A stretch of 64,000 nucleotides of DNA from Shimia sp. SK013 (lineage in GTDB: Bacteria > Pseudomonadota > Alphaproteobacteria > Rhodobacterales > Rhodobacteraceae): contig NZ_LAJH01000009.1 in NCBI RefSeq assembly GCF_001292625.1, forward strand, positions 806,001 through 870,000. Reading direction: 5' to 3'. The notes under the pieces were generated by a model. The model was given only the letters and a program-made list of their open reading frames with translations. It made no database searches and was not told where the DNA came from. This document shows, piece by piece, positions 29,972-41,772 of the stretch. Position 1 is the stretch's first letter. Each line of letters starts with the position of its first letter. The position numbers were made by a program, and so were the translations under genes.

Positions 29972-30868
29972 TTAATGATTTGCGAGCATTCCTTTGGTCG
30001 CCGCCAATTCGCGCATACGCTTTTGCAGCTTTTCAAAGGCACGCACCTCGATCTGGCGAATACGCTCACGGCTCACGCCGTACTGTCCGCTCAGGTCTTC
30101 TAGCGTGACGACTTTCTCCGCCAAACGGCGTTGAGTCAGGATGTCTTTTTCGCGATCATTCAGAACTGCCATCGCTTCCGCCAATAGCTCGCGACGCGCG
30201 TTAAGCTCGTTTTTGGCCTCATAATCTCCCGCCTGATCGGCGTCTTCATCCTCAAGCCAGTCCTGCCATTGCATGGTGCCTTCGCCGTCGGAGCCGACCT
30301 GCGCATTCAGGGACGCGTCGCCGCCCGACATGCGTCGGTTCATCGAAATCACCTCGGTTTCGGTCACGCCCAAGTCATTGGCAATGCGGGCCACGTTTTC
30401 GGGGCGCAAATCGCCCTCTTCCAACGCACCAATACGGGCTTTGGCCTTACGCAGGTTGAAAAACAGCTTCTTTTGCGCAGATGTCGTGCCCAGTTTCACC
30501 ATCGACCACGACCGCAGGACGTATTCCTGAATGCTGGCGCGAATCCACCACATGGCGTAGGTCGCCAGACGGAAGCCTTTTTCCGGGTCAAAGCGTTTGA
30601 CGGCCTGCATCAGGCCGACGTTGGCCTCAGAAATCACTTCGGCTTGCGGCAAGCCATAGCCGCGATAACCCATCGCGATCTTGGCTGCGAGACGCAGGTG
30701 AGATGTCACCATTTTGTGAGCGGATTCAGCGTCTTGCTCTTCCACCCAGCGTTTGGCGAGCATGTATTCTTCTTCCGGCTCAAGAAGGGGAAATTTGCGG
30801 ATTTCCTGCAGATAACGGTTCAGACCGCCTTCTGGTGTTGGGGCCGGCAGGTTTGCATAGTTTGCCAT
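29972..30868 (-). CDS. rpoH: RNA polymerase heat-shock sigma factor RpoH
   Basis: Sigma-32-type factor, 298 residues. Region 2 shows RWVEEQDAESAHKMVTSHLRLAAKIAMGYRGYGLPQAEVISEANVGLMQAVKRFDPEKGFRLATYAMWWIRASIQEYVLRSW, including the RpoH-box neighbourhood FFNLRKAK; region 4 ends with [29 protein letters not shown] stands 6 bases before the ATG at 30868, so this start is firm over 30892. Many roseobacters carry two rpoH genes; only one is in this window. Confidence 0.96.
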   Translation of the reverse strand: MANYANLPAPTPEGGLNRYLQEIRKFPLLEPEEEYMLAKRWVEEQDAESAHKMVTSHLRLAAKIAMGYRGYGLPQAEVISEANVGLMQAVKRFDPEKGFRLATYAMWWIRASIQEYVLRSWSMVKLGTTSAQKKLFFNLRKAKARIGALEEGDLRPENVARIANDLGVTETEVISMNRRMSGGDASLNAQVGSDGEGTMQWQDWLEDEDADQAGDYEAKNELNARRELLAEAMAVLNDREKDILTQRRLAEKVVTLEDLSGQYGVSRERIRQIEVRAFEKLQKRMRELAATKGMLANH

Positions 30869-31092
30869 CTGTGTCCTCCCTCCGAGTAACAAGTGCCATA
30901 ATGTTTATATCGTTAACATCTATTTAGTCAGCGCTAACAGGCTTTCAATGGCACGGGCGGATTTTCTCTTCAAAAGGTTAAGATTTTTTCTGCACCTGCA
31001 CCACAGGCATTTCTGTGCTTTTGCGCGCATGTGCAGTTTATTGCCGATGACACCAAAACTGCGCCCTGATCCTTGCGCACCCGAAAGACGGT

Positions 31093-32127
31093 TTAACCCG
31101 CGCCTGCGCTCAGCGCCGTGATAAGCGTGGTCATATCCTCAGGCATCTCTGCCTCAAACCGCAGATCTTCTCCTGTTACCGGATGCACAAATCCCAACAC
31201 AGCGGCGTGCAGCGCCTGTCGCGAAAATGTCTTTGCTGCTTCAAGCCCTGCCGCGCCGATGGCTTTTTCGGCCAGCTTGCGTCGCCCGCCATACACCGGA
31301 TCGCCAATCAAGCCGTGTCCGGCGTGGGTCAAATGTACGCGAATCTGATGCGTGCGACCGGTTTCAAGCCAACACTCCACCAATGCGGCCACTGCTGGCG
31401 CGCCGAACGGCTCAACAATGCGCACCCGTGTCACCGCATGTCGGCCGCCTTCAAACAGCACCGCCTGACGCTGACGGTCGGTCTTGTGGCGGGCCAGATG
31501 GGTGGTGATTTTCATGATATTGCCGGGCTCAAAATTCACCCCGCGCACGCCGCGTAAGCGCGGATCGTTGGCATCAGGCACCCCGTAGCAGACCGCGCGG
31601 TAGTAACGTTCGACCGCGTGGGCGGCGAATTGATCGGCCAACCCCTGATGCGCGGCATCAGATTTGGCTACGACCAGCAACCCACTGGTTTCCTTGTCAA
31701 TTCTATGAACTATTCCGGGACGCTTCATGCCTCCGACACCAGACAAGCTGTCACCACAGTGATGCAGCAGCGCGTTGACCAACGTGCCATTTGGCGTACC
31801 GGGCGCGGGGTGAACCACCATGCCTGTGGGCTTGTTGATCACAATGAGATCATCGTCTTCCCAAATCACATCCAGAGGGATGTCTTCAGGGCCGATGTGG
31901 CTTTCTTCGGCCTGCGGCACCGCGATCTCGACGGCTTCGCCACCCGCAACCTTGGCTTTGGGATCGCGCACCACAATGCCGTCCACTTTGACGGCACCTT
32001 CAACCAGCAATTTCGCCAGCCGTGTGCGCGACAGAGTCGCCTCCACTGGCACATTCAGCGAAAGCGCCTTATCAAGACGCTTGGGCGGGTTTTCCGCGAT
32101 CACGAAAGTAACAAAGGCTTCAGCCAT
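31093..32127 (-). CDS. rluD: RluA/RluD-family ribosomal RNA pseudouridine synthase
   Basis: Makes pseudouridines in 23S rRNA (RluD type acts at 1911/1915/1917). The 344-residue protein has an N-terminal S4 domain (KRLDKALSLNVPVEATLSRTRLAKLLVEG) and the catalytic core with the motif RPGIVHRIDKETSGLLVVAKSD, where the Asp of HRIDKET is the nucleophile, plus GRTHQIRVHLTHAGHGLIGDPVYGG. The start is the ATG at 32127, which shares two bases with the divergent ATG of the next gene; the frame continues to 32364 only within that gene's shadow. RluD versus RluC/A is by resemblance. Confidence 0.9.
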   Translation of the reverse strand: MAEAFVTFVIAENPPKRLDKALSLNVPVEATLSRTRLAKLLVEGAVKVDGIVVRDPKAKVAGGEAVEIAVPQAEESHIGPEDIPLDVIWEDDDLIVINKPTGMVVHPAPGTPNGTLVNALLHHCGDSLSGVGGMKRPGIVHRIDKETSGLLVVAKSDAAHQGLADQFAAHAVERYYRAVCYGVPDANDPRLRGVRGVNFEPGNIMKITTHLARHKTDRQRQAVLFEGGRHAVTRVRIVEPFGAPAVAALVECWLETGRTHQIRVHLTHAGHGLIGDPVYGGRRKLAEKAIGAAGLEAAKTFSRQALHAAVLGFVHPVTGEDLRFEAEMPEDMTTLITALSAGAG

Positions 32128-32419
32128 GACAGATGCTCCGGACCCGATCGAGCCAGCCAACCTGCGGTTTTTGCGGTTGCTGGTCACAGGCTTGACGACG
32201 GTGATGATTGTCGGGCTTGTAACCGTGGTCGCGCTGATTGTCATGCGCTTCCGTGACGACGGGCCAATCCTTCCGGAAGAGATCACTTTGCCCGACGGCG
32301 TGGCGGTGCAGGCTGTGACCACCGGTGACGGCTGGTACGCACTGGTGACGGATGACGACCGCATCCTGATTTACGACCGCATCACCGGCGCGTTGCGTCA
32401 GGAAGTGGTGCTGGACTAA
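32126..32419 (+). CDS. DUF6476-like single-pass membrane protein
   Basis: A 97-residue protein with one transmembrane helix (residues ~14-40) and a C-terminal periplasmic or cytoplasmic part ending DDDRILIYDRITGALRQEVVLD, which looks like one beta-propeller-style hairpin. It resembles DUF6476, of unknown function. AAAGG lies 8 bases before the ATG. The ATG overlaps the divergent rluD ATG (sequence CATG), so both ribosome sites and probably both promoters lie within the opposite gene. Confidence 0.75.
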   Translation: MTDAPDPIEPANLRFLRLLVTGLTTVMIVGLVTVVALIVMRFRDDGPILPEEITLPDGVAVQAVTTGDGWYALVTDDDRILIYDRITGALRQEVVLD

Positions 32420-32436
32420 GGCGCGCCTGACCTTAG
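32416..32436. terminator. Small hairpin spanning both convergent stop codons
   Basis: CTAAGG and CCTTAG pair across a 9-base loop; the stem contains the stop of the DUF6476 gene and the stop of the cyclase gene. Six pairs and no T-run, so its effect is uncertain. Confidence 0.3.
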
Positions 32437-34160
32437 ACAGCAAGTGTTTCTTCTTCGCTGAATGACGCGCGATAGACTGGCACCGGATCGGCGTATCCTT
32501 TGAGGTCAACCGCCGGACGCGCGTCCAATGCGACGCCTTCGTCCACCAAATCCGTTGTCGCACGATCCACAAGCACCTCCCATGGGCCTGCTTTGGAACA
32601 CAGGCGTGCAGCGAGATTCACGGTGGAGCCCAGCACGGTATAATCCATCCGTTCCCTTGCGCCCATTGCGCCAATCACCACCGCGCCGGACGCAATGCCG
32701 ATGCCCACGGCCAATTCGCGCCCCGTTTGGGCGCCAAAGCTCTCGGCCAGCGCTTCCTTGATTTCGACACCACAGCGCACGGCGCGGTCTTCTTTGTCCT
32801 CGCCCACAAACATCGCCATCAATTCATCGCCGACAAATTTGTCGATGTCTCCGCCGTGGCGCACGACAATGGCTGACTGGATCTCGAAATAGCGGTTCAG
32901 CACCTCGATCACTTCTTCCGGCGTCACAGTCTCCGAAAACGCGGTATAACCGCGAATATCGGAGAACAGCATTGTCACCTCGCGCCGCTCCCCGCCGCGC
33001 TTGATGCCTGCGCCGTCACGGGCCTGAATGGCGGACACAGTTTCGTGGCTGACAAACTTCATCAACTCCATACGTTCGCTAAGCTGGCCAGCCATGGTGT
33101 TCACCCGCGCTGCCAGATCGCCAATTTCGTCGCGGCTTTTGACCCGATCCACGCGCGCGCTGTAATCCCCTTCGCCAATTGCGTCCGCCACGCGCCCGAT
33201 TTTCAGGATTGGACCGGTCAGGCCTTTGGAGAAAATCAGCGCAGCTGCCGACGCCGCCGCAAAGCCCAGCGCGCCGACCATCACGATGCGACGCATCATT
33301 TCCGCGATCACCGCATAGGCGCTTTCTTCACTAAGTTCGGTTATAACCGCCCAGGGAAACCATTCGGGAAAGGCATAAGCCCCAAGCATGTCCGTGCCGT
33401 CGGGCCGCCTGTAGGTCTGAAGCGCGTCGGCCCGTGCTCCCGCCACAATCAGTGGCATGGCAGACGCGACAATTGCGCGTTGGTTCATAACTTCGGGATC
33501 ATCTACCAACGCGGTGCGGCCCGCGTGATCCACGATGGTGATTTCGCCACGCTGGTTGAACGGATGGCGCGACACCGTGCGCCGCAACGCGCCAAGATTG
33601 ATACGGGCTGCCAGAGTTAATTCTCGTCCCGCAATTTTGCTTTCCATTGGCAGAGCCAGCGTCGCGACCCAATCACCGGTTTCCCGGATTTGGCTGATCA
33701 GCGGTCGGCCAAATTGGCCTGTGCCTTTGATGTTGGCGATCAGTTCCGGGCTTGCAGCCAGTGTGGTGACCGGATCAAGCCCTTCTGCGGCAAGCGCTTC
33801 GCCAAAAGTCTGATCGCTTACCACCATGGGAATATCAGAACCTTCAACGCTTAACTGCAGCGCCACGACCCCTTCCAATTGCTCCATGCCCTGCGTCAGC
33901 AGCGAGACCTTTTGCGCCACGTCCAGATCCGGATTGTCCACGCCGGAACGGATCACCATCAAAGGCGCAAGCCAACGCCCTTGATACATACTGTCGAACT
34001 CGCTGCGCACCTGTGCGGCGACGCCTGTCAGGTCTTCGTTCACGGCGCTTTTGAGTTCATCGCGTGCGATGCGCACAAGGTTTTCCCCCACCAACGCCAG
34101 CGGCACAACGGCCACAAGTGCTGCAAACAGGAAGAACTTGAGCGGTAGCGGGAAACGCAT
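32433..34160 (-). CDS. Membrane class III adenylate/guanylate cyclase with extracellular sensor and HAMP
   Basis: A 575-residue signalling enzyme. N-terminal helix (~5-24), a large periplasmic Cache-like sensor (~30-280), a second helix (~288-310), HAMP (~311-363) and a class III cyclase domain (~390-560). Catalytic residues are present: LFSDIRGYTAFSE and GDIDKFVGDELMAMF supply the metal aspartates, and YTVLGSTVNLAARL the substrate and transition-state residues. cAMP is the likelier product. The ATG overlaps the PKD gene stop by one base (TGATG), tying it to the secreted repeat protein. Confidence 0.92.
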   Translation of the reverse strand: MRFPLPLKFFLFAALVAVVPLALVGENLVRIARDELKSAVNEDLTGVAAQVRSEFDSMYQGRWLAPLMVIRSGVDNPDLDVAQKVSLLTQGMEQLEGVVALQLSVEGSDIPMVVSDQTFGEALAAEGLDPVTTLAASPELIANIKGTGQFGRPLISQIRETGDWVATLALPMESKIAGRELTLAARINLGALRRTVSRHPFNQRGEITIVDHAGRTALVDDPEVMNQRAIVASAMPLIVAGARADALQTYRRPDGTDMLGAYAFPEWFPWAVITELSEESAYAVIAEMMRRIVMVGALGFAAASAAALIFSKGLTGPILKIGRVADAIGEGDYSARVDRVKSRDEIGDLAARVNTMAGQLSERMELMKFVSHETVSAIQARDGAGIKRGGERREVTMLFSDIRGYTAFSETVTPEEVIEVLNRYFEIQSAIVVRHGGDIDKFVGDELMAMFVGEDKEDRAVRCGVEIKEALAESFGAQTGRELAVGIGIASGAVVIGAMGARERMDYTVLGSTVNLAARLCSKAGPWEVLVDRATTDLVDEGVALDARPAVDLKGYADPVPVYRASFSEEETLAV

Positions 34161-37100
34161 CAATTGCTGCCTTCACGCGCTGTGGCTTTGATCAGCGCGG
34201 TGTCTGTGCTGACACCACAGCTAAGCCCGCTGCTGTCTCGTGCCGTCACCGTGACCGTATAGTCACCCGCACTGGCATACCGGTGCCGCGCCACAGCTCC
34301 AGACAGGCTGGTGCCATCGCCAAAGTCCCAATCGATCAGCAGCCCCTGCCCGTCCGGATCACGCGCAGCGCTGGCGTCAAACCGCAACACATCATGCGCG
34401 GCGCCCACTGGCGTGGATTGGTTCGCCCCGGCGTCCACCACTGGCGCACTGTTGACCAGAACCCGCGCCATGTCCTGACCCGTGTTGCAGGTTGCGCCAC
34501 TGTCATCGACAACGCTCAGGGTCACATCAACCGGGCCTGTGGCGCCAAAGCTGCGTGTGACTTCGGCGCCGCGCAGTTCCACGCCGTCCGAAAATGTCCA
34601 GATGTGGTTGGTGATCTTGCCATCCGCATCATACCCACCGGCGCTGAAAACCACGTCTTCATCGGCACAGACGACACGATCCGGCCCCGCATCAGCCTCC
34701 GGCACCGCATTAACACGTGCGTATACCTCCTCGCGGTAAACCGAATTCGCCAACCCGCGCCCGTCATCTGTGGTCACCGCCACCGGATAAAGCCCCGGCT
34801 TGGCAAAGACATGCTCCACCGCGACCCCGGTGTCGGTCTGCCCGTCGCCAAACGCCCAGTTGACCGCGACACCCTCCGCAGCGGTCACTTGCCAGCTGCG
34901 TGGTGTGTTCGCACAAAGCGCGGGCGGCGTATCCAACCCGGCAATCGGCACCGGATTGACCGTGACTTGCCGCGCCGCCACCGCGACCGAATTGGCCACG
35001 CCCGCATCGTCCATAACCTCAAGGGTCAACGCATAGGTGCCGGCCTTTTCATAGCGGTGGTGTCCCGCAACCCCAGTCGACGTGCTGCCGTCGCCAAAGT
35101 CCCACAGGTAGCGCGTGATCACCCCGTCCTGATCGAGCGACCCGCCAGCGTCAAACGACACCAAAGCGCCCACTGCGACGCTTTCGGGTCCATCAATCGC
35201 GGGCTGGGGCGCTGCGTTAACCACAATCTTGTGGCGGCTGACCAATTGCCCGCAGTCCTGCGTGCCGCCCTCAAGTTTGGTGGTCAATGTCACCAGATAT
35301 TCACCCGGTGCATCAAACACATGGTTGGCGTTTTGTCCTGACGCGTTTGCACCGTCGGAAAACTGCCAGTCAAACGCCACTGGATCGCCGGTTCCTGCGG
35401 CCTCACCCAGCTTGGCGAAAAACGCCACTGCCTCGCCGACCGGCGCGCGTTCGACGGCCACAATCGTTTGGCTGCGCGCAGGCAGCACCTCGACCGTCAC
35501 GGTGTCTGTGTCCAGCGGGCTGCATTGACCAACCGCGTCGCCCGTTATGGTCAGTGTCACGGAATAGGTGCCTGCGCGTTCAAAGCTTTTGACCGGCGAC
35601 GCGCCACTGGCGCGGCTGCCATCACCAAAGGTCCACTCAAATCCATTCACCGATCCATCCGCATCGGTGGAGCCGCTGCCATCCATGCGCACTTCTTGAT
35701 TGACGCACACCCGCATATCCGGCCCCGCGTTGGCAATCGGCCCCTCTTGCACGATGACCGCAATCCGGTCGCGATCGCTGCCACGGCTTGAGCCGCTTTC
35801 ATCCGCCACCGACAATGTCACCGGATATGTGCCCGGCATTTCATAGGTCTTGGTCGGGTTGATGATGTCAGACCCCGTGCCATCGCCAAAGTTCCAGTTG
35901 TACTGCAGCAGATCGCCATCCGCGTCCGCACTTTGAGAACCATCAAACAGGATCGACTCGCCTGAACACACATCACGGTTGCCACCGGCATGTGCCACAG
36001 GTGCTGCGTTGATGATCACTGTGGTTGCGTCAATGTCGCTGGCATTGCTAAGACCAGATCCGTCGTCCACCCGCAACGTCACAGGAAAGCGCCCCGCCCT
36101 TGGGAACACATGCGCCACTTCACGACCAAACATCTGCTGCGATCCATCGCCAAAGTCCCACTGATAGACAAGGTTGTCCCCATCCGCGTCGCTTGAGCCG
36201 CCCGCATCCAGCGTCACAAGCATTTGGTCGGTATCGATTACAGGACCTGCTTCGGCTTCGGGGCGATGGTTGACCTGAATGACAACACTGTCTTGGGCTG
36301 TCGCATTGGCCACGCCGCTGTCGTCGCGTACAATCAGGCGGGCGTTAAAAACGCCAGCCGAGGGCCACGCGCGTTCAACTACGCTGGCTTCAAGCGGGGA
36401 TTGCAGATCGTCAAATTCCCAACTGTATCCCGCCAGTTGACCGTCGCGATCAAACGACCCGGTGGCGTCAAAAGACACGCTTTCATCCGGGGCAACGCGA
36501 ATATTGGGACCGGCGACTGCCACAGGCTGATCGTTGACCGTGATCAACACTTCGCTTTCGTCACCCGCGCCGCCGCCCACAAAATCATCGGTCACGGCAA
36601 GCATCACACGATGCAGTCCCGGTTGATCAAAACTGTGCGCCGCACGCACGCCGGTCTTGGAGCTGCCATCCGTGAACGACCAGACGTAATCTACCACCCG
36701 ACCGTCGGGATCAAGTGACGCCCCCGCATCCAGCACAAACTCTTCGCCCGGCGCCACCGTCAATGCAGGGCCCGCATCCGAAATCGGCGCGGCGTTCACC
36801 ACCACTTTCATCGTGTCGCGATGGGTGCTTTGTGGCGCACCGCTGTCATCTTGCACGGTCAAAGCCACATCATAAGTGCCGGGCCGTGCAAAGCTGTGCA
36901 CAGGACGTGGTCCCTGTCCCGTGCGTCCATCGCCAAAGTCCCAAAGGTATTGCGCGATCTGCCCGTCGATGTCGCGTGAGGCGCCACCGTCAAACTGCAC
37001 ATCAGAGGTTGTCACAAACTGATCCACTCCAGCGTCCGCCACGGGCCTTGTATTGACGATCACCTCGTAGGCCACTTGTTGAGTGGCCGAAGTGGTACCG

Positions 37101-39037
37101 GAATTGTCGGTCACTGCCAGTACCACGCGATAAACACCGGGTTTGGCCCACGCGTATTCGGCCATCTCACCTTCGCCGATCGAACCGTCACCGAAATCCC
37201 ACAGATGGCTCAGGATCACACCATCCGCGTCACGCGACCCGCTGCCGTCAAGCAAAACGGCCTCGCCCACAGCAACCGGTTCCGACGGGCCTTCGATCAC
37301 CGGCACCGGTGGTGCGTTCACCCGAATGGTCAAACGATCCATAGCCGTTGCGTTGGCAACGCCGCTGTCGTCGGTCACGGCAAGCGCCACAGTGTATACC
37401 CCGGGCTCGGTATAGACATGCGTCACCCGCGATCCGTCGAGCGTTGTCCCGTCGCCCATCTCCCAGACGTGCGCGCCAATGGTGCCGTCCACATCATAGC
37501 TGGCCGCGCCATCCAGCGTCACCGCGCGCCCCACGATAGTGCTTTGATCCGTGCCCGCCTCGGCAACGGGTGCTGCGTTCACCGTTACCAAGCGCGTTGC
37601 TACACCGAAGTTACAGGGATGACTGCTGCCATCTGAAACCCGCAACACCGACCGATATGCCCCCGCCTGACCGTAGACGTGTTCGGTAGCCGCGCCTTCG
37701 ACCGCTGCGCCATCGCCGAAGGTCCAAACATAGCGGGTGATCGGGCTGTCACTGGGCACAGAGGCGCCCCCGTCAAAAGCCACCACATCGCCCGGTGCCA
37801 CCGTGATGTCCTGACCTGCCATTGCAACCGGTGCTTTGCGTATATGCACGGGTGCCGTGGCCTCGGCCCCGCGCGCCGCGCGCGTACCGGGCAACAGCAC
37901 GCGCAACCGCGCGTCATACTTGCCGGTGGTGTTGTAACCATAGGCGCTGACCGGCTCCGCGCCGGTTGCTCCATCGCCGTAGTCCCACATATAGGCCAGC
38001 AACGGATCTGCACCGTCATGGCTGCCATCAAAGGCCACCGACCTGCAGTCCGCCAATTCCCGCGCGCGCGGCAAAGCTTCGGGGCGTTCCGGCACCGGGG
38101 CCTGTCGTGGTGGCATCAGGATAGGCAAAGCAGTGCCTGTTTGATCAAACACCGACAGTGTCACATCATTGGGGGTTTCAAAACCGCCACGCAAGGTGAT
38201 GGCAAGCAAATCCTCGCCGGGCGACACCTCTTCCGAGCTCCAGAGGTTCTGGCCCGACGCCCGCAAACGCATGTCGGAATACATCCGGTTCAAACGCAGA
38301 TCCCCCGCCGCGCCGTCAAAATTCTGCACCGTTAAAGGCCCAACCGCCGCGTTCATCAACTCGACCCGTGTGCCGGCATCACCGCCGGGCCAGCGAATGG
38401 TTGGCTGATAGGCCTCCATGACCAGCCCGACTGGTCGGCGATGCACATCGCGGGCAAGGCTCACATCTACGTTAAACCCGTTGCCGTCGTCGCCGTCGGC
38501 GCCAATGACTTCGAGGCGGAACCAAGCGCGATCGCCAATGACCTCACCTTGCCGCGCCCGCATCGATCCAAGCGACACCCATTGCCCGTCTGTCTTCGGG
38601 TCAGCGACAAACGTTGCCTCCCGCAGCACGTCCCCGGACCGGGGTGCCATGAGCGCCGCGCGTTTTATCTTTTGCGGTCGCGCTCCATCTGCAACCGACA
38701 CCGGCATCTCGATGCCTGTGCGCGCACCTTCGCCGCCAAACACCCGATAGATTGTCTCGGTGTTGCCATAGCGGCCATAGCGAAAATCATGTTCACCGCT
38801 CATCTCAGGATCAAATATCCGCACATAAATTCGGTCGCGCAAATTATTGGGAACGCTAATCAAAATCGTTTCGCGGTGATCAATGTCGCCTTCACGGGTT
38901 GGCGCAAGTACGCCATAAACGACCAAGAGACCCTGATCCACGGGTGGCGCCATATCTTGCGCTCTGACGGCCTCGCCGCTCAGCGTCAAAATCACCGCCG
39001 CCCAAATACGCATTATGCGTCGCATCATCCCAATCAT
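34160..39037 (-). CDS. Giant secreted protein with 15 PKD-like repeats
   Basis: About 1625 residues. A signal peptide (WAAVILTLSGEAVRA) is followed by a ~310-residue N-terminal part of no recognised family, then 15 tandem PKD-like domains of ~85 residues to the C-terminus. Each shows a DGxGSxDxDG-type start, WxFGDG in the middle and DDSG near the end; repeats 6, 7, 11, 13 are the most divergent. PKD folds resist mechanical force and appear in surface adhesins and sensors. No membrane anchor or sorting signal is seen. Start is the ATG at 39037; 39070 is possible. Middle gene of a three-gene cassette. Confidence 0.85.
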   Translation of the reverse strand: MIGMMRRIMRIWAAVILTLSGEAVRAQDMAPPVDQGLLVVYGVLAPTREGDIDHRETILISVPNNLRDRIYVRIFDPEMSGEHDFRYGRYGNTETIYRVFGGEGARTGIEMPVSVADGARPQKIKRAALMAPRSGDVLREATFVADPKTDGQWVSLGSMRARQGEVIGDRAWFRLEVIGADGDDGNGFNVDVSLARDVHRRPVGLVMEAYQPTIRWPGGDAGTRVELMNAAVGPLTVQNFDGAAGDLRLNRMYSDMRLRASGQNLWSSEEVSPGEDLLAITLRGGFETPNDVTLSVFDQTGTALPILMPPRQAPVPERPEALPRARELADCRSVAFDGSHDGADPLLAYMWDYGDGATGAEPVSAYGYNTTGKYDARLRVLLPGTRAARGAEATAPVHIRKAPVAMAGQDITVAPGDVVAFDGGASVPSDSPITRYVWTFGDGAAVEGAATEHVYGQAGAYRSVLRVSDGSSHPCNFGVATRLVTVNAAPVAEAGTDQSTIVGRAVTLDGAASYDVDGTIGAHVWEMGDGTTLDGSRVTHVYTEPGVYTVALAVTDDSGVANATAMDRLTIRVNAPPVPVIEGPSEPVAVGEAVLLDGSGSRDADGVILSHLWDFGDGSIGEGEMAEYAWAKPGVYRVVLAVTDNSGTTSATQQVAYEVIVNTRPVADAGVDQFVTTSDVQFDGGASRDIDGQIAQYLWDFGDGRTGQGPRPVHSFARPGTYDVALTVQDDSGAPQSTHRDTMKVVVNAAPISDAGPALTVAPGEEFVLDAGASLDPDGRVVDYVWSFTDGSSKTGVRAAHSFDQPGLHRVMLAVTDDFVGGGAGDESEVLITVNDQPVAVAGPNIRVAPDESVSFDATGSFDRDGQLAGYSWEFDDLQSPLEASVVERAWPSAGVFNARLIVRDDSGVANATAQDSVVIQVNHRPEAEAGPVIDTDQMLVTLDAGGSSDADGDNLVYQWDFGDGSQQMFGREVAHVFPRAGRFPVTLRVDDGSGLSNASDIDATTVIINAAPVAHAGGNRDVCSGESILFDGSQSADADGDLLQYNWNFGDGTGSDIINPTKTYEMPGTYPVTLSVADESGSSRGSDRDRIAVIVQEGPIANAGPDMRVCVNQEVRMDGSGSTDADGSVNGFEWTFGDGSRASGASPVKSFERAGTYSVTLTITGDAVGQCSPLDTDTVTVEVLPARSQTIVAVERAPVGEAVAFFAKLGEAAGTGDPVAFDWQFSDGANASGQNANHVFDAPGEYLVTLTTKLEGGTQDCGQLVSRHKIVVNAAPQPAIDGPESVAVGALVSFDAGGSLDQDGVITRYLWDFGDGSTSTGVAGHHRYEKAGTYALTLEVMDDAGVANSVAVAARQVTVNPVPIAGLDTPPALCANTPRSWQVTAAEGVAVNWAFGDGQTDTGVAVEHVFAKPGLYPVAVTTDDGRGLANSVYREEVYARVNAVPEADAGPDRVVCADEDVVFSAGGYDADGKITNHIWTFSDGVELRGAEVTRSFGATGPVDVTLSVVDDSGATCNTGQDMARVLVNSAPVVDAGANQSTPVGAAHDVLRFDASAARDPDGQGLLIDWDFGDGTSLSGAVARHRYASAGDYTVTVTARDSSGLSCGVSTDTALIKATAREGSN
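34163..38070 (-). repeat. Array of 15 PKD-domain repeats (protein level)
   Basis: Fifteen units of about 255 bases encode PKD domains with WDFGDG-type cores. Units differ from each other throughout, so this is an old protein repeat array and not a recent DNA amplification. Linkers between units commonly read VNAAPVADAG. Confidence 0.8.
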
Positions 39038-39053
39038 CCCCACTTCAGCCTTC

Positions 39054-41411
39054 TCATCGGAAAGCCTCATTGCCCGCGTAATCCTGCACAATCACCTCGA
39101 TCAAACTCATCTCACCTTGCGAAGCCGGCAGACTTGCACGGCAGACACCCGCGCGGCTGTCGCAGCGCAAATATCCCTCAAATTCCGCATCCCCAACTTC
39201 CACCAAATAAGGCGCCGCCTGACGCAGTCCGCCCTCATCTGTTGCCGTCACCACAATTTCAATCGGCCCCGCATCCCCGTTTGGTCTCAGCATTTCGGCA
39301 GAGGCGATTTCCGGCGGCTCCAGATCCAAAAGCGTTTCGATGGCCAGAACACCTACGTTTCCTGCGGCGTCTTCGGCCCGCAATTCAAACGTGTTGCGCC
39401 CGGGCGCCAAGGCAATCTGCGTGGCAAAGAAATCATCAAACATCTCAAGCTCTTCGCCATCGAGCTTCAAGCTCACTGCGTCGCCAAAAACACCGGTCAG
39501 ATCAAGTGTTTGCTCAGACGTGGCCCGTGGCGGTGGCACGTCCAGAACGATCTCAGGGGCTTGCGTGTCCAATTGCACAGAAAATTCCAAGTCACCGACC
39601 AAACGCCCTGCCAACGACACCACCTCGAGCCGATAATCTTGTACCTGTGGGCCGACGGGCACTGTCATTGCCAGCCGCCCGCCAGTACCGATGCGCGTGC
39701 GCCCGACCTCAGCGCCAACGGCATCGCGCAGCAGCGCGTCCAACCCTGACGGCGCCGAAGTTGCGGCCAAAACCGTCATCTCCGGCGTGCGACTGACCAG
39801 GAAATCCCCCTGCCGCGCAAGCCCCGCGTCCAGATCAATCCGCACCGCTTCTTGCCGCACGTAAGTCACGTTTCTACGTTTTTCAGACTTGTTCCCCGCA
39901 GCGTCCAACGCCACCAGAACCAATTGGTTTTCCCCAACCTTCAAAGGCGCTTGCACGACAAAGCTTCCGTCTTTGGAGATCGTAACCGGTGTGCCGTTAA
40001 GCGTTAGAACTGCGCCCGCCTCCGCTGCTCCCAGCACTTCGATTGCGCCATTTTCCACGAGCGTCGCGTCTTGCGGGGCCAACACGGTCAGAAATGGCGG
40101 TGTCTCGTCAATGCGCAGCTCAAAGGCGCGGGTTTCGGACCACTTCCCGGGCAAGCCCAACTTGTCCAATGCCGCGACACGCCAAAAATGCACACCAGGG
40201 GTTAATGCCTCGACCCGAAATCCGGTGTCCTTAACGCCCCATTCGGTCATGATCATCCGATTGAAGCCAGGATCTCGCGCGACCTCAAACCAATAACCGC
40301 TGGCCTCTGGAAACACCTGCCAACTAAGATCGACAGCGCGTCCAAAGACCTCCGATTTGTCGGCTGGCTGCGACAGCAACGTGCGCTCCAGAACCTCTGC
40401 GCGGGCTGTGACGCCGGCATCGGTAATCACGACCCCTTCGTCCTGCCCCAAAGACACCTTTGCCGAACCACTTTCAATGTCCAATGCGGCGGTGTCGTAG
40501 TTCACAAATAGGGCGCTGTCGTCTTGTTTCTTGATCCAGAAATCATCGCTTTCGGTGGTCGTCTGAATGCCCGGCACGTCGATCTCAAAACTGTCCTGAT
40601 CGGACAGTTGATTGAGCAAAGCGTAAAAATCGCCGCTTTGCAGGCTGACTTTGGTGACCTCCTTGCCGGTCAGAGGGTCCGACCGCATCCGTTGGATCGT
40701 GGCATTGGAGTTCGGGTTGAGACGCAACCGGCTGAGGTCGCGAAAGGTCACCTGCGTTGTGGAATTTGTCAGCGTGCGAACCCTTTCAAATTCCACCAGA
40801 ACATCATCAAGCGCCCTGTTAGACCAAACTGCCTCTGCCGGATCCCGGCCTTCCACACGTCCGTGAATGTCAGTGATCAGCGCTTCCGCCGCACGGTCAC
40901 GTTGGGCCACGGCTATTTCAAACGCCTCTACTGCGTGATCCGTGCTGGACCCCGCATAATCCACGACCTGCCGCCATTCGCCCTCGCCGCGCCGTGTCAC
41001 CGCCGTGTCCCGATCCGAGATCGCATCACCAATTTGTAGCGGTGCAAACAGCCGCGCGCCTTCGGCCGTCGCTTTCTGAATTGCCGTCAGAGACATGGCC
41101 AAAGCTTCGTCCGCCAAAGCCACCTGCACCACCGGCAACTGCAGAACCGTGCCGGGCGACAAATCCGCGACCGACGTCAAATCATTGATCCGCAGAATGG
41201 TCGGCCAAAGGTCCGGATCGTTCAAATGTTGGGCTGTAAAATCACGCAATGTGGAGTCGCCAGAGAACGGCACCAACTCGTAGGGTGCGTTCAGTGGATC
41301 AACATCGGCAGAGACACGAAAAGCACCGCTGTTGCCGCCAATGGCCAGCAACAGGCACAACGCCCCCAATAGTCCGGCACGCGTATTTCGAATTGTCGCC
41401 GGGCGGAACAT
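39054..41411 (-). CDS. LysM/FecR-domain protein with Ig-like C-terminal repeats
   Basis: A 785-residue exported protein. Signal region ~1-35; a LysM-like module (LRDFTAQHLNDPDLWPTILRINDL, LSPGTVLQLPV) at ~48-95; a long helical stretch; a FecR-like domain at ~200-335 (TTQVTFRDLSRLRLNPNSNATI); then FN3/Ig-like repeats (ESGYWFEVARDPGFNRM-like, and three modules ending ALDAAGNKSEKRR, EDAAGNVGVL, QDYAGNEAFR). LysM suggests a link to peptidoglycan. The ATG at 41411 has GGGGG 5 bases upstream; 41423 has no such site. It precedes the PKD gene by 16 bases. Exact function unknown; FecR domains in such proteins are usually sensors. Confidence 0.85.
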   Translation of the reverse strand: MFRPATIRNTRAGLLGALCLLLAIGGNSGAFRVSADVDPLNAPYELVPFSGDSTLRDFTAQHLNDPDLWPTILRINDLTSVADLSPGTVLQLPVVQVALADEALAMSLTAIQKATAEGARLFAPLQIGDAISDRDTAVTRRGEGEWRQVVDYAGSSTDHAVEAFEIAVAQRDRAAEALITDIHGRVEGRDPAEAVWSNRALDDVLVEFERVRTLTNSTTQVTFRDLSRLRLNPNSNATIQRMRSDPLTGKEVTKVSLQSGDFYALLNQLSDQDSFEIDVPGIQTTTESDDFWIKKQDDSALFVNYDTAALDIESGSAKVSLGQDEGVVITDAGVTARAEVLERTLLSQPADKSEVFGRAVDLSWQVFPEASGYWFEVARDPGFNRMIMTEWGVKDTGFRVEALTPGVHFWRVAALDKLGLPGKWSETRAFELRIDETPPFLTVLAPQDATLVENGAIEVLGAAEAGAVLTLNGTPVTISKDGSFVVQAPLKVGENQLVLVALDAAGNKSEKRRNVTYVRQEAVRIDLDAGLARQGDFLVSRTPEMTVLAATSAPSGLDALLRDAVGAEVGRTRIGTGGRLAMTVPVGPQVQDYRLEVVSLAGRLVGDLEFSVQLDTQAPEIVLDVPPPRATSEQTLDLTGVFGDAVSLKLDGEELEMFDDFFATQIALAPGRNTFELRAEDAAGNVGVLAIETLLDLEPPEIASAEMLRPNGDAGPIEIVVTATDEGGLRQAAPYLVEVGDAEFEGYLRCDSRAGVCRASLPASQGEMSLIEVIVQDYAGNEAFR

Positions 41412-41695: not shown

Positions 41696-41772
41696 TGGTA
41701 CCGCCTCCCCGGCTTGAACGGGGGACCCCTGGTTCCACAAACCAGTGCTCTAACCAACTGAGCTAAGGCGGC
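41696..41772 (-). tRNA. tRNA-His (anticodon GTG)
   Basis: A complete 77-base cloverleaf with encoded CCA. Acceptor GCCGCCT/AGGCGGT, D stem GCTC/GAGC, anticodon stem CTGGT/ACCAG with loop TTGTGGA (anticodon GTG), T stem CCCCG/CGGGG with loop TTCAAGC. The base before position 1 is T, so no G-1 is encoded, and the discriminator is A73; both are as known for one clade of Alphaproteobacteria in which HisRS does not need G-1. Confidence 0.95.

Follow-up and report, generated by a model that had tools for sequence, protein, structure and literature searches.

A FecR-domain protein, a 15-repeat PKD protein and a membrane cyclase encoded together in Shimia and other Alphaproteobacteria: a putative envelope-to-cAMP sensory unit

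Introduction

The stimulus of many bacterial class III cyclases is unknown, and a locus of Shimia sp. SK013 (Rhodobacteraceae), in which a membrane cyclase is encoded in a row with two apparently exported proteins, raises the question of whether such partners could supply the input. We discuss here this gene trio, or cassette, as it occurs in a stretch of 64,000 nucleotides (hereafter the window; contig NZ_LAJH01000009.1, positions 806,001 to 870,000) of a genome of 4.05 Mb in 28 contigs. A first-pass annotation of the window had described an exported protein with LysM, FecR and Ig-like modules, a secreted protein of 15 PKD repeats and a membrane cyclase, and had proposed a wall-linked sensor of force or ligand that reports through cyclic AMP (cAMP). 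With moderate confidence, we consider the trio to be one inherited sensory unit, in which the exported pair would set the activity of the cyclase through a periplasmic Cache domain. Linkage of the genes, agreement of their trees and their joint decay in one locus make a single envelope-to-cAMP sensor the best reading, and to that extent the proposal stands; “wall-linked” and “force” are the less secure of its terms. Since the cyclase is kept with two specific exported partners in very diverged genomes, its stimulus becomes approachable genetically, and the near-fixed number of PKD repeats makes the role of array length directly testable.

The gene trio and its conservation

The trio consists of three consecutive open reading frames (ORFs) on the minus strand, spanning 32433..41411 as first annotated, and the overlap TGATG reported between the PKD stop and the cyclase start is likewise present (34162-34158):

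39054..41411, minus strand: LysM-like/FecR/FN3-like/Ig-like protein, apparently exported, 785 aa (Pfam and hydropathy)
34160..39037, minus strand: 15-PKD protein, apparently exported, 1625 aa counted from the ATG at 39037, with 15 PKD_4 stretches
38018..39037, minus strand: N-terminal region of the PKD protein, starting with the putative signal peptide and reaching residue ~312 (340 as drawn); two all-beta halves
34158..34162, minus strand: TGATG, the one-base overlap of PKD stop and cyclase start, read in the window sequence
32433..34160, minus strand: membrane class III cyclase, 575 aa, with HAMP and Guanylate_cyc (Pfam)

Among named records, the best match is to Shimia sp. Alg240-R146 (FecR protein 92%, cyclase 98%), and the ratio of nonsynonymous to synonymous substitution rates (dN/dS) against four Shimia-group relatives, 0.04-0.12 in 11 of 12 comparisons (the twelfth not being computable), places the trio genes under purifying selection.

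The spread of the cassette was judged from collections of genomes, contigs and plasmids, with the FecR protein as marker for genome scans and with searches of a kind that miss remote relatives. The FecR protein is carried by 21 of 394 genomes of the family, and 19 of these have the complete ordered trio; of the other two, L045 is truncated at a contig end and L050 has an internal deletion. A scan of named genomes gave 67 loci, a set that overlaps the first (18 of 22 anonymous carriers are among the named loci) and includes some close kin. All three genes are complete, ordered and on one strand in 58 of them, with gaps below 200 bp in 55 and a longer PKD gene in L111, L113 and L114; the median intergenic gaps in complete loci are 43 and 24 bp. 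As for the remaining nine, L078, L090, L108 and L110 run off their contigs, the PKD gene of L058 is split into two ORFs, an additional PKD gene is present both in L102, whose cyclase runs past the locus end, and in L109, where the main PKD gene is broken and the contig ends, and L116 and L118 have internal deletions. Each of the loci without a cyclase match (L045, L078, L090, L109 and L110) stops at a contig end, and no alternative order was found among loci holding all three genes. The order also holds beyond Rhodobacterales, in Hyphomicrobiales, Geminicoccus and both Skermanella plasmid records, down to about 37% identity of the FecR protein; the records reached by the named scan include Roseibium, Bauldia, Geminicoccus, Skermanella and Rhodospirillaceae. 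The check that the first-pass annotation had suggested, whether relatives keep the gene order, thus came out in its favour. Other searches reached less far: the cyclase alone as marker at E <= 1e-60, too strict a limit, did not lead beyond the genus (4 of 101 genomes of the order), nor did class-wide single-sequence searches (2 of 289 each, in a sample with few family members), and a phylum-wide profile search gave 6 of 398, namely two genomes of the genus and four that match in the FN3/Ig-like part only.

The three genes have been inherited together. FastTree trees of the three proteins, made from 58 members with 15-repeat loci only, largely agree: patristic distances correlate at 0.98, 0.97 and 0.96 between trees, and of the 35-44 splits with support of at least 0.9 in each tree, 29-32 are common to each pair. 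Deletion derivatives were also seen, at L116 9917-13110 (uncultured Shimia isolate 4-924) and at L050 5034-6605, which equals the L118 contig (a Marinibacterium metagenome-assembled genome, MAG); in these, a FecR part directly joins the PKD end or a cyclase part.

The cyclase

Two transmembrane (TM) stretches are apparent from hydropathy, and the protein is laid out as TM1, a predicted periplasmic dCache-like domain (residues ~30-288), TM2, HAMP (311-361) and a catalytic domain (393-555), that is, with a Cache domain between two TM helices and HAMP following, as in Cache-HAMP receptors. Its AlphaFold2 (AF2) model has a long helix, then two alpha/beta halves. HAMP is found in all 61 cyclase members. 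The Cache-like sensor of the first-pass annotation is subthreshold in the window protein, where dCache_1 matches at E=0.01, under the curated cut-off, and draws its support from the family, in which dCache_1 matches at E up to 1 in 48 of the 61 (best E 1.3e-7).

The catalytic residues described as intact are indeed so: the window protein has D401, K441, D445, T508, N515 and R519, and all six are present in 58 of 61 members, the window included. Together with the Guanylate_cyc domain, these residues assign the protein to the class III nucleotidyl cyclases. We take the two Asp to bind metal, the Lys and Thr/Asp to bind substrate, and the Asn and Arg to act on the transition state; the pair Thr508 and Lys441 presumably suits ATP as substrate (class IIIb), and the product is probably cAMP. 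In L116, where the PKD gene is mostly gone and the FecR gene reduced by half, His replaces the metal-binding D401, a joint decay that would be expected, in this single case, if the parts of the cassette were interdependent.

The exported proteins

The PKD protein has 15 repeats across residues 313-1612, counted with a profile made from the window's own PKD modules, so that the number first reported is sound; the secretion reported with it would follow from a signal peptide discerned by eye. A C-terminal anchor appears, again by eye, to be absent, and hydropathy of the whole protein gave no 19-residue window above threshold; the protein is apparently exported. Near-fixed repeat numbers are unusual among tandem-repeat proteins. 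Here, 57 of the 67 named loci and both Skermanella plasmids have exactly 15, and the other full-length PKD genes have 17 (L114) or 19 (L102, L111 and L113), all four labelled Hyphomicrobiales or Bauldia, with the added modules falling at about positions 3 to 5 by their best-match pattern. Roseibium and other Hyphomicrobiales-labelled records, such as L108, have 15. Repeats also keep their places: across 59 members, 811 of 885 have the like-numbered repeat of the window as their best match, with positions 3, 5, 8, 9 and 10 doing so in 59 of 59 and position 11 in 41 of 59, and in the 11 farthest members, which include two near-identical plasmids, the count is 101 of 165 against a chance expectation of 1 in 15. 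Mean identity among repeats within the window array is 39%. Given the retained number and positional matches, the array was most likely assembled a single time and then kept. Two Hyphomicrobiales MAGs have an extra gene with 6 PKD repeats and a similar N-terminal region (L102 12278-14791 and L109 12407-14941), which follows the FecR gene and precedes the main PKD gene.

The N-terminal region of the PKD protein has no Pfam family in the window member, and among 65 members just four families appear, each weak and each in one member. The AF2 model of residues 1-345 has a predicted local distance difference test score (pLDDT) of 91.4, and a structural search with the model of the region gave no clear match.

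The FecR protein comprises a LysM-like stretch (residues ~44-93), a helical part (~97-205), the FecR domain (210-300) and Ig-like modules from residue 439, with limits outside the Pfam matches set by eye. Pfam finds FecR and Glucodextran_B/Ig-like in the window protein, and FecR is its most conserved module (mean column conservation 0.83). The helical part gave weak TPR_12 matches in 2 of 10 orthologues scanned. The sole hydrophobic stretch, residues 12-31 by hydropathy, was taken by eye as a signal peptide, and this protein, too, is apparently exported.

A putative route from envelope to cAMP, and its rivals

In the reading we favour, the FecR/LysM-like and 15-PKD proteins would reach the periplasm or cell surface by export and jointly form the input part; the cyclase would take this input through its periplasmic double-Cache domain and relay it via TM2 and HAMP to the class III catalytic domain, which would make cAMP. 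The likeliest form is one in which a wall-associated FecR protein and a PKD rod present a ligand to the Cache domain or occlude it, the ligand being perhaps a polysaccharide or the state of the wall. In one lineage, cAMP may act on an adjoining ATP-binding cassette (ABC)-type membrane protein with a cyclic-nucleotide-binding domain. The data establish the linkage of the genes, their common inheritance, a constant domain architecture, intact catalytic residues and purifying selection, whereas export, contact with or control of the cyclase by the exported pair, cAMP as the product and the nature of the stimulus are inferred.

Several observations weigh against this reading. Two Tateyamaria loci have altered cyclases in cassettes that are otherwise complete (D401R and T508A in L080, N515T in L083), so that the exported pair may act without cAMP, which would speak against a universal cAMP role of the cassette, and the host genome has 13 Guanylate_cyc matches, this cyclase included, so that the trio would not be the sole source of cAMP. 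Between 1 and 4 strongly supported splits conflict in each pair of trees, and the TGATG coupling is not widely kept, the PKD/cyclase gap being negative in 10 of 55 complete adjacent loci and 3-156 bp in the other 45. The LysM module is also at issue: FecR and Ig-like modules stand as first annotated, but LysM has no Pfam match up to E=5 in the window protein and none in 7 of 10 scanned orthologues, with weak matches in L095 and L119; in L105, from Geminicoccus, the equivalent stretch scores 21.8 bits, above the cut-off of 20.9. A profile search matched a “peptidoglycan-binding protein” (9rce, E 0.018) and a baseplate protein (8kea, E 0.098), both of which we take to hold LysM. “Wall-linked” depends on this LysM-like stretch.

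The exported pair might instead be a structural or adhesive surface assembly, for matrix formation, polysaccharide binding or attachment, with a cyclase that regulates it or is co-regulated and receives no input from it. We regard this as possible, though on the unlikely side. Adhesins and carbohydrate-binding proteins often contain PKD and Ig-like modules, the FecR protein matches Glucodextran_B, and L080 and L083 keep the exported pair beside a probably inactive cyclase; yet wherever sequence continues past the pair the cyclase is present, the cyclase tree is largely congruent with the trees of the exported proteins, conservation of the Cache domain is similar to that of the FecR and PKD protein modules, and it is not obvious why a pure adhesin would need a nearly invariant repeat number. 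That the cassette is mobile cargo, held together mainly by transfer and with no direct biochemical coupling, seems to us improbable. Its patchy distribution (21 of 394 family genomes), its presence on Skermanella plasmids with transposase genes in the same stretches, the closed site in four relatives and its place beside DUF3307/ABC genes in another lineage would suit such cargo, but the ten scanned window neighbours include no integrase or transposase, no exact repeat of at least 11 tRNA bases lies on the far side, and transfer alone leaves unexplained a fixed repeat number and short gaps that persist to about 37% identity.

In a narrower version of the sensory-unit reading, the PKD rod would be a gauge of fixed length for tension or distance, its stretch or displacement being read by the Cache domain. 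A nearly fixed number of 15 with positional orthology would fit a fixed-length rod, and PKD modules presumably bear force in polycystin-1, but, by eye, neither end of the PKD protein shows an anchor, its hydropathy stays under threshold throughout, the repeat number rises to 17 or 19 in four Hyphomicrobiales-labelled loci, two loci carry the extra 6-repeat gene, and force sensing has no direct support; we think such a gauge quite unlikely. Nor do we think it likely that the trio represents a new class of receptor-cyclase with an external rod of constant length as its input, in which 15 PKD modules and a wall-associated FecR protein would gate a Cache-HAMP adenylyl cyclase by position or tension, self-contained in its spread across Alphaproteobacteria.

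Comparison with known systems

FecI-FecR-FecA surface signalling is a known system of FecR (PF04773) proteins. The trio shares with it the PF04773 domain and differs in that its FecR protein has no hydrophobic stretch beyond its start; no extracytoplasmic function (ECF) sigma factor or TonB-dependent receptor was found among the ten neighbouring window ORFs scanned. The composition of FecI/FecR/FecA is also given in excerpts of a paper (PMC9239204) that describe, in Campylobacterota, a CHASE2 adenylate cyclase cluster of cyclase, phosphodiesterase, FecR-domain outer membrane protein and TPR protein. This confirms the remark in the first-pass annotation that FecR-like proteins lie near cyclases in other bacteria, and the likeness extends to the placing of a gene for a FecR-domain envelope protein next to that of a membrane cyclase and to a cluster thought, in the same excerpts, to be horizontally mobile (PMC9239204). 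The trio differs in its dCache-like and HAMP sensor, in its 15-PKD protein, whose gene lies between the FecR and cyclase genes in the same row, and in having no phosphodiesterase or separate TPR gene; neither occurs among the ten scanned neighbours (two of which had no Pfam match), and CHASE2 is absent from the 23 Pfam families listed for the 61 cyclases at E up to 1. Since FecR proteins beside CHASE2 cyclases are already described, the trio is a variant within that kind. Literature searches on FecR or PKD with cyclases, in open-licence papers, returned no description of a PKD-containing trio, which may be in print elsewhere.

In Sinorhizobium meliloti, the outer-membrane receptor NsrA acts through the inner-membrane cyclases CyaK and CyaD1/CyaD2, so that, as in the proposed unit, signalling through cyclases of the inner membrane depends on an envelope protein that lies outside this membrane (PMC7529298, excerpts). 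In the same species, the Clr target SMc02177 has a FecR domain, and the results reported in the excerpted part of that study did not support a role in perception of a plant signal (PMC5498481). The trio differs from the NsrA system in having no barrel gene and in having FecR and PKD proteins. FimV and CyaB of Pseudomonas aeruginosa presumably differ as well, as we take FimV to have a TM helix and cytoplasmic TPRs and no place in a PKD-containing trio, and CyaB to have another sensor. The likeness here is a periplasmic LysM-domain protein upstream of cAMP production, as FimV, with its LysM domain, positively regulates adenylate cyclase activity (PMC6855561, excerpts).

Insertion site and neighbours

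The gene order in the window is MmcB, GNAT, tRNA-His, cassette, DUF6476, pseudouridine synthase and sigma factor, and two features border the cassette:

41696..41772, minus strand: tRNA-His, upstream border of the cassette
31820..32419, plus strand: ORF with DUF6476 (residues 111-198), in convergent orientation to the cyclase gene and bounding the insertion on this side

A DUF6476 search in nine cassette-free or reference relatives, with seven loci fetched, gave a distance from tRNA-His to DUF6476 of 82-474 bp in four cassette-free relatives (G002, G004, G015 and G019); in G005 and G014 tRNA-His was not within the fetched stretch, and in G041, of the same genus and without this cyclase at E <= 1e-60, about 7.3 kb of other genes fills the gap. 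Ten further distinct Shimia-group carriers were compared: the cassette is followed by the DUF6476-synthase block in all but one (L088) and preceded by tRNA-His in six, immediately in L052, L056 and L059 and with ~2-8 kb in between in L089, L094 and L117; the stretch contained no tRNA-His in the other four. Neither feature was seen at the deleted copy L116. The ten scanned window neighbours include the sigma factor, with regions 1.2, 2 and 4 (29972-30892). In other loci, flanking genes were clustered, not annotated, with 24 of 67 loci represented in the largest cluster. At the tRNA-His site, a similar gene set is found with the cassette (L094 2301-9688, L089 2936-9588) or without it (L192 7107-13714); that of L094 includes a YcaO protein and a BTAD-domain regulator, and the set is possibly a peptide-modification cluster in an insertion hot spot.

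A neighbouring ABC-type protein

In another lineage, the cassette adjoins a DUF3307 gene and the following gene:

G000:C12:531795-534830 (L123 7796-10834) and L034 15439-18390: ABC exporter-like membrane protein with a C-terminal cNMP-binding domain

A best match above 700 bits to this protein occurs in 18 of 21 cassette genomes against 41 of 373 others (Fisher p 1e-13, uncorrected for kinship), and its gene lies downstream on the same strand in 11 of the 21, 7.2-7.6 kb past the FecR match in ten and 1.4 kb in the deleted copy G722. It was rejected as a cassette member, as it adjoins DUF3307 without the cassette in all 20 cassette-free genomes examined (of 41), where neither the cassette proteins nor the cyclase catalytic domain had a match in the 10-19.5 kb fetched. 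The window genome carries the protein on another contig, as one of three cNMP_binding matches only, against 13 of Guanylate_cyc, that is, with many possible makers of cAMP and few classical receivers. The GEL...R motif of the ABC-type protein, which we take to be the phosphate-binding motif of the domain, looks intact, and the protein may be a target of cAMP in the one lineage.

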